A stretch of 64,000 nucleotides of DNA from Rhodothermales bacterium (GTDB lineage Bacteria > Bacteroidota > Rhodothermia > Rhodothermales > UBA10348): NCBI GenBank assembly GCA_040221055.1, contig JAVJVN010000019.1, positions 62,001 through 126,000 on the forward strand, read 5' to 3'. This document shows, one piece after another, positions 42,136 through 43,315 of this stretch. How positions within the stretch are numbered: the first letter of the stretch is position 1; each line of letters begins with the position of its first letter. The notes beneath the pieces are model-generated. The model had not been told where the DNA came from. It was given only the letters and a program-made list of their open reading frames with translations, and did not search any database. Position numbers and translations under genes: made by a program.

Positions 42136-42546
42136 TCAGCGCCGGATGACGGGCTCCGTGATTCGTGCTCCGAGAGGAAGGATGAAGGTGGCGATGATGA
42201 CCGTCGGGGTGTCTCCCGGGTTCACGGTCTCGTGGATGACGTTGCGTCGGTTCTCATACGCCTCTCCGGCCGCGACGCGGCGCACCGTGCCGTCTGCTCC
42301 GTGGATTTCCAATTGACCTTCAAGTACCACGGCCCGTTCGTCGCCCGGGTGCAGGTGCCAACCGGTGGTGCCGCCGGGCGCAAATGTTGCCCGGATGGTG
42401 ACCGACATCAGGGAGTCGGAGACGGACAGCGGAGACTCGTGGAGGACGTCCAAGGTAATGCCTTGCTGCTGTGCTGGGCTGTGTCGCGGAGACACGGCCA
42501 GCCAAGTGGTCAGTAAGGCAAATACGACAGCCGCGTGCTTGAGCAT
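42136..42546 (-). CDS. Exported cupin-domain protein
   Basis: A 136-residue protein with a signal peptide (residues 1-25, core AAVVFALLTTWLAVS, cleaved near SPAQQQ) and a single cupin domain. Metal-type cupin motifs are present: GGTTGWHLHPGDERAVVLEGQLEI (His, His, Glu) and later NRRNVIHETVNPGDTPT. The start at 42546 sits 41 bases after the ECF sigma stop, so it is probably the last gene of the peptide-sigma-cupin unit. Cupin folds occur in ChrR anti-sigma factors, but this protein is secreted and lacks a cytoplasmic anti-sigma domain, so that role is unlikely in the same form. Confidence 0.82.
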   Translation of the reverse strand: MLKHAAVVFALLTTWLAVSPRHSPAQQQGITLDVLHESPLSVSDSLMSVTIRATFAPGGTTGWHLHPGDERAVVLEGQLEIHGADGTVRRVAAGEAYENRRNVIHETVNPGDTPTVIIATFILPLGARITEPVIRR

Positions 42547-42586
42547 GGAGTTCAGCCAAAAGAGGACCGCTCGGACGAAACGACCG

Positions 42587-43150
42587 TCATGGGCAGTCGC
42601 CTGTGCAGGGTTCGCCGGTTCCACAGTGAGCCTCAAGAACGCCTCCGCGGCTGTCAAAGGCAACCCGGCAGCACGACAGCAGGTCGTCTTTCAGACGACT
42701 ACGGGCGCGTTGGACGCGGGACTTGGCTCCGGACACGGAGAGGCCCAGACGCTCGCCCATCTCAGCCTGGGTCAACCCCTGGAACTCCGTCATTTCAACG
42801 GCCATCCGCCAGTCTTCAGGGAGATCCTCCAGGAACGGAAGCAGGCAGTTCGAGAGCGCAGCGTAGGCTGACATGTCCAAGGATTCTCCAGACAGGTCCG
42901 TTTCGTCGTTCAGCGGTACCGTCCGATCGGGTTTGGACCGCCGCCAATAATCCGTAACCGCATTGCGCGCAATGGCATACAGCCACGGGAGTATCCGGTC
43001 CTCGGATTTAAGGGTATCCTGGCGCTGCCAGACGCGCACGAGGATGTCCTGAACGACATCCTCGGCGTCGTCAGACGTGCGTACGCGGCTCTGGACGTAG
43101 TCCAGGAGCCGCGTACGCAGCGCGTCGAGTTGGTTGCTGCTCAGCAGCAT
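42587..43150 (-). CDS. ECF sigma factor, SigZ-like, with Cys-rich tail
   Basis: A 187-residue extracytoplasmic-function sigma factor. Region 2 (LLDYVQSRVRTSDDAEDVVQDILVRVWQR, DRILPWLYAIARNAVTDYWRR) binds the -10 element and core polymerase; region 4 (ALSNCLLPFLEDLPEDWRMAVEMTEFQGLTQAEMGERLGLSVSGAKSRVQRARSRLKDDL) holds the helix-turn-helix. After LLSCCRVAFDSRGGVLEAH a tail with five to six Cys (CGTGEPCTGDCP) follows, as in SigZ relatives, where a CC-x-FD-x-R-G pattern recurs. The tail suggests metal or redox sensing without a classical anti-sigma gene. The start ATG at 43150 overlaps the end of the Cys-rich peptide frame by 10 bases. Confidence 0.9.
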   Translation of the reverse strand: MLLSSNQLDALRTRLLDYVQSRVRTSDDAEDVVQDILVRVWQRQDTLKSEDRILPWLYAIARNAVTDYWRRSKPDRTVPLNDETDLSGESLDMSAYAALSNCLLPFLEDLPEDWRMAVEMTEFQGLTQAEMGERLGLSVSGAKSRVQRARSRLKDDLLSCCRVAFDSRGGVLEAHCGTGEPCTGDCP

Positions 43151-43239
43151 CCGCCGCCACCGCAGGTGCAATTTCCGTCAGAGCAGGTACAGTTGCTGCA
43201 GGTACATTTCGTGCAAGTACAGTTCATGATGATCACCAT
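43141..43239 (-). CDS. Metallothionein-like CxC-repeat peptide (not in standard gene size range)
   Basis: A 32-codon frame (28 if the inner ATG at 43227 is used) directly before the ECF sigma gene on the same strand. From the inner Met it reads Met-Asn, then four CTC triplets separated by TK, SN and SDGN, and ends GGGGCC: ten cysteines in 28 residues. Regular CxC spacing is a metal-thiolate pattern as in metallothioneins, though no known family is matched. The final codons TGC TGC TGA overlap the sigma ATG by ten bases, so the two are probably translationally coupled. lpdA ends 76 bases upstream on the same strand. Confidence 0.6.
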   Translation of the reverse strand: MVIIMNCTCTKCTCSNCTCSDGNCTCGGGGCC

Positions 43240-43315
43240 GTGTTCCGGTTAACGCAGGACCCGAGTGGACCCGCTTCACCTGTACAGACGCACGTTTCCC
43301 GAAAAGGACGCAGGA

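Follow-up and report, generated by a model that had tools for sequence, protein, structure and literature searches.

Organization of the locus

As summarized in Table 1, the minus strand of the window (the whole stretch of 64,000 nucleotides analysed here) carries, between lpdA and metG, a short Cys-rich peptide gene, a gene for a SigZ-like ECF sigma factor and a gene for a secreted Cupin_2 protein. The ten-Cys CxC frame of the initial annotation (MVIIMNCTCTKCTCSNCTCSDGNCTCGGGGCC) was found as described and indeed overlaps the start codon of the sigma gene, the overlap being 10 bp long with the sigma ATG lying within ATGCTGCTGA, the ten bases that end the peptide gene; the two genes are probably translationally coupled in the window. 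Since GGTGATCATCATG is common to the same-family relatives (n = 4) while the first ATG of the frame is missing in two of the four, the peptide start was assigned to the second ATG at 43227, and the alternative at 43239 was dropped.

No anti-sigma gene adjoins the sigma gene at this locus, lpdA and metG being the flanks, in agreement with the initial annotation. It had also placed a secreted cupin 41 bases 3' of the sigma gene; the cupin is there, and the gap after the sigma stop codon measures 40 nt. A stretch with ten Cys within 28 aa occurs once in the whole window, and 60 first-order Markov shuffles of the window gave at most eight Cys per 28 aa and never the CxC pattern, the regularity of which is thus beyond chance, as had been asserted.

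Table 1. Features of the peptide-sigma locus in the window
Feature	Position	Strand	Description
Predicted ECF-type promoter TGCGTCCTTTTCGGGAAACGTGCGTCT	43312..43286	minus	Pattern match; same element in relatives
-35 element TGCGTCCTT of the promoter	43312..43304	minus	
-10 element CGTCT of the promoter	43290..43286	minus	
Full frame MVIIMNCTCTKCTCSNCTCSDGNCTCGGGGCC	43239..43141	minus	
CxC peptide gene	43227..43141	minus	28 aa, ten Cys; alternative start 43239
SigZ-like ECF sigma gene	43150..42587	minus	187 aa; TIGR02959, ECF fold
Codons of the sigma C-terminal Cys tail	42673..42587	minus	CC, then three further Cys; candidate metal/thiol sensor
Cupin_2 protein gene, secreted	42546..42136	minus	136 aa; Pfam Cupin_2 E 5.7e-15

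Properties of the CxC peptide

The window peptide contains 10 Cys among its 28 residues, arranged as four CxC and one CC, with no H, F, W or Y, and thereby has the composition of a metallothionein (short, Cys-dense with CxC/CC, free of aromatics). Sequence searches of Pfam, NCBIfam and the PDB gave no family or structure match for it, metallothionein families included, and no Pfam or NCBIfam family covers the recurrent Cys peptides of 26-48 residues described below. We term it metallothionein-like, and metal binding is predicted from its composition. SmtA is a metallothionein under the metal sensor SmtB. Another metallothionein, MymT, is controlled by RicR (PMC10141476). Like these two, the window peptide is very small, consists of Cys to about one third, carries CxC/CC, lacks aromatics and is found beside or under the control of a putative regulator responsive to metal, whereas this regulator is a sigma factor rather than a repressor and the peptide is without a sequence-family match. 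The literature search found no paper naming SigZ together with metallothionein, and the main text of a flavobacterial TSS paper (PMC9723704) mentions neither.

In one clade, 29 peptides were alignable across 28 columns, where the Cys codons vary between TGT and TGC only, an invariance that is not independent evidence because the peptides were gathered with a pattern that included the Cys columns. At the non-Cys sites of this alignment pN/pS was 0.57, in line with the purifying selection by which the peptide was to be judged. A Gly and an Asn were each kept in 28 of the 29 peptides. Between clades, the sequences are strongly divergent except for Cys.

Properties of the sigma factor

The best family match of the window sigma, across its full length, was NCBIfam TIGR02959 (SigZ, as in Bacillus subtilis), with 157.7 bits and an E-value of 2.3e-46; as this score lies under the equivalog cut-off of 168.65, the protein is called SigZ-like rather than a formal member of SigZ. 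The literature search yielded neither a signal nor a regulon reported for SigZ. Pfam Sigma70_r2 and r4_2 both exceeded their gathering scores, and the AlphaFold model matched ECF sigmas in Foldseek, being that of an ordinary ECF sigma with a short beta-hairpin predicted to follow the invariant CC; model confidence is low at the end of the tail. The Cys cluster previously noted at the C-terminus was confirmed, five Cys falling within the final 28 residues, and in 30 aligned sigmas the CC is invariant and one later Cys nearly so.

CorE and CorE2 (former ECF44, now ECF238) are likewise ECF sigmas with no anti-sigma gene and with a Cys-rich C-terminal extension, which senses metal, and metal sensing by a Cys-rich extension has also been suggested for ECF287/288 (PMC8999054). 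The window sigma shares with CorE/CorE2 the ECF type, the Cys-rich extension and the lack of an adjacent anti-sigma gene, and the control of metal-resistance genes by the latter (PMC8999054) is a further likeness to the proposed role of the window module. In contrast, the CxC of the CorE sigma2-sigma4 linker is absent from the window sigma, which has a single Cys (C102) in that region; the window-type tail is shorter and of a CC plus C..C type; and the putative targets at window-type sigmas are a CxC peptide, ArsM or ArsI/CadI.

Conservation of the module

A search of genome contigs for related loci returned one distant sigma only, and no such sigma was found in three genomes of the same genus. 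In four genomes from another genus of the same family, a Cys/Gly-rich ORF is kept 5' of the sigma gene, with lpdA 5' of this ORF wherever the contig extends that far. Both close relatives whose contig extends past the sigma gene have metG 12 bp after it and no cupin. The cupin is probably co-transcribed with the sigma gene in the window, but the trio of peptide, sigma and cupin is thereby dismissed as a conserved unit: the peptide-sigma pair is conserved, and the cupin does not belong to the conserved core of the module.

Relatives of the sigma, defined as matches to the TIGR02959 model, were surveyed in 114 genomes of the order, 395 of the phylum and 251 of one large family (probably the Flavobacteriaceae), giving 95 distinct loci. 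A short Cys-rich ORF lies beside the sigma gene at 46 of them, 41 times upstream and five times downstream, compared with 1 on the opposite strand as control, and short Cys frames thus recur near SigZ-type sigma genes elsewhere, as would be expected from the initial annotation; an earlier, narrower ATG-based count had given 41 Cys-rich ORFs and 0 on the reverse strand. Another 15 loci have an ArsM or ArsI/CadI gene behind the sigma gene, and 34 have neither such a gene nor a Cys-rich ORF by the criteria applied. In one large clade the upstream peptide is present in 29 of 29 loci, and on a maximum-likelihood tree of the sigmas the locus labels require 11 changes, compared with 43 when shuffled. 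The window sigma, which sits on a long branch that leaves its exact position unsure, has as its neighbours on the tree (support 85/68) two sigmas, one with MEKSCECSNCTCKNCTCGTCCMGTTTTTCC 5' of it and the other with a Cys peptide of 48 residues, inside a supported clade of seven.

A profile search of the 251 genomes of the large family detected 38 peptides, 30 of which lie at a SigZ gene. For the other eight, CxC peptides of the same type (loci L252 and L254-L260), there is no SigZ gene in the stretch of about 1-2 kb read, and the sigma-type promoter is present at 0 of the 8. The stand-alone peptide of L257 has lost three Cys, as if decaying.

Predicted promoter and intergenic hairpin

In the window, the predicted promoter TGCGTCCTTTTCGGGAAACGTGCGTCT is flanked by lpdA and the peptide gene; it is the sole site without mismatch in the window genome. 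A common ECF-type promoter of the form TGCRTCYTTT..CGTC precedes most sigma-linked peptides, taking the form TGCATCTTTTT..CGTCTA 5' of the peptides in the large family. Among the 41 upstream loci, the strict pattern placed it no more than 200 nt 5' of the peptide in 27 and the relaxed pattern in 30, with none on the reverse strand; near the sigma gene it occurs on the sense strand at 35 of the 95 loci (3 on the reverse strand, none in Markov shuffles). In 25 genomes, the strict pattern matched solely at sigma loci. From this linkage, the predicted promoter is probably read by the window sigma. A wider regulon in the window genome was rejected, since two-mismatch sites were no more frequent there than with a reversed-pattern control.

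At L144 and L151, a sigma-type promoter 3' of the sigma gene precedes an unexpected target, a PAP2-like phosphatase (by eye) with a pair of Cys at its C-terminus (..GCAKTCE). At L133, a promoter-like element 3' of the sigma gene precedes a secreted Cys-rich protein of 57 aa (MKNKMYITLAALVLSAGSIFAYANLSKTDAKKNCTEKCSTHCCSDDSGTCAPKDCKK).

A strong stem-loop (mean z -3.8) is predicted in each of the 31 peptide-sigma gaps that measure 35 nt or more, followed in 23 of them by a T-rich stretch. This fits a terminator-like hairpin through which peptide transcripts would outnumber those of the sigma gene. At the window locus the genes overlap, and hence there is no intergenic gap.

Detoxification genes in the same position

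At peptide-less sister loci, the same promoter is placed behind the sigma gene and precedes ArsM or ArsI/CadI, which score above the NCBIfam cut-offs where tested; at five loci, the promoter behind the sigma gene precedes a CxC peptide in place of an enzyme. The peptide therefore takes the slot of a metal(loid)-detoxification enzyme. These observations, together with the phylum-wide recurrence and the common promoter, supported the earlier idea of a metal- or thiol-responsive regulator paired with a peptide, except for the membership of the cupin.

Arsenite or a different thiophilic metal is the most likely inducer. A separate ArsR-like/ArsM pair is encoded in the window genome, so that the signal may be other than arsenic, and ArsI/CadI, being named for arsenic as well as heavy metals, would fit either. 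As further targets of the sigma in the window genome, ArsI/CadI was discarded because the gene is absent there, and ArsM because an ArsR-like gene of its own precedes it and because same-genus genomes without the sigma likewise have it. The frame of this ArsR-like regulator (L266, G000:C4) ends in TTCC. ArsI/CadI and ArsM are missing from most of the peptide-bearing genomes tested.

At L114 (G054), a 71-aa Cys-rich ORF (..SSCCEP..TCCEP..SCCG..ACGC) at about 2056-2390 on the plus strand lies between the same promoter and the sigma gene, followed by ArsO-like and ArsK-like genes that score below cut-off; the Cys-density criterion left this ORF out of the Cys-rich count. Behind the window-like peptide-sigma pair of L224 (4663-7829) are genes for a CueO-like multicopper oxidase, which scored below cut-off, and for two proteins with no match in NCBIfam; this arrangement may hint at copper.

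Alternative explanations

The peptide might target the sigma itself, serving as a metal donor or as a small anti-sigma dependent on redox state or zinc rather than as a protective chelator, and the tight linkage of the pair, the Cys-richness of both partners and the lack of a separate anti-sigma gene would suit such a role. It is nonetheless unlikely, given that ArsM or ArsI/CadI fill the same promoter slot at sister loci, that stand-alone peptides occur and that the peptides diverge so strongly between clades outside Cys. The CxC frame could be a polycysteine leader at which ribosome stalling on Cys codons under cysteine shortage regulates the sigma gene, the peptide itself having no task. 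Polycysteine uORF attenuators are reportedly known from mycobacteria, and they share with the present loci a short Cys-dense ORF close upstream of a possibly controlled gene, which in the window overlaps the sigma gene; the hairpin in every gap of at least 35 nt would also suit this reading. However, the five peptides downstream of the sigma gene with their own promoter and the eight without a sigma gene in the 1-2 kb or so read disfavour a Cys-codon attenuator, as does the complementarity of the stem-loop arms to the ORF, which amounts to 7.1 bases versus 7.8 for shuffled ORFs and thus shows no excess of an antiterminator kind. Moreover, the Gly and the Asn are conserved alongside Cys and the window leader structure is unremarkable (z about 0), and we regard such attenuation as rather improbable.

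A role as RiPP precursor, in which a Cys/Gly core would be turned into a modified natural product, is very unlikely: a leader-like N-terminus, MLNVFLGPLDVEA, does precede such a core in the same-family relatives, yet most peptides are leaderless, none matches a RiPP family, and no modification enzyme or exporter recurs at the loci whose neighbours were listed. That the frame is a chance ORF without product, as its shortness and its lack of a Pfam or NCBIfam family might suggest, is hardly credible in view of the Markov shuffles, the strand-controlled recurrence across the phylum (46 versus 1) and the pN/pS value at non-Cys sites.

Proposed function and significance

Taken together, a conserved module of peptide, sigma and promoter is well supported, and we consider it likely that it is a self-contained system, a one-component sigma factor responding to soft metal(loid)s together with a metallothionein-like peptide dedicated to it. 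In the proposed mechanism, the Cys tail of the sigma would probably bind a soft metal or metalloid and thereby activate the sigma, which would then transcribe from TGCGTCCTT..CGTCT, 5' of the CxC peptide and the sigma gene, as their linkage suggests. The ten-Cys peptide would be the output, a chelator sequestering the metal, and the lowered level of free metal would switch the sigma off again; in many relatives, the terminator-like hairpin between the genes would leave more peptide than sigma transcript. We propose both the chelating role of the peptide and the sensing role of the sigma tail with moderate confidence, and it is plausible that the peptide buffers the very metal that the tail senses, as initially supposed.

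On balance, it also appears somewhat probable that the Cys-tailed SigZ-type sigmas of the phylum are one-component soft-metal(loid) sensors, each with one or a few detoxification outputs, namely ArsM, ArsI/CadI or unannotated CxC metallothionein-like micropeptides including that of the window. If so, this would provide a signal for SigZ-type factors, along with a promoter and a set of targets, none of which we found described for them in the literature searched. The survey also brings to light a recurrent group of 26-48 residue Cys peptides outside the Pfam and NCBIfam families, and the peptide-sigma pair, being small and directly testable, could be used as a metal sensor that is compact and brings its own chelator.
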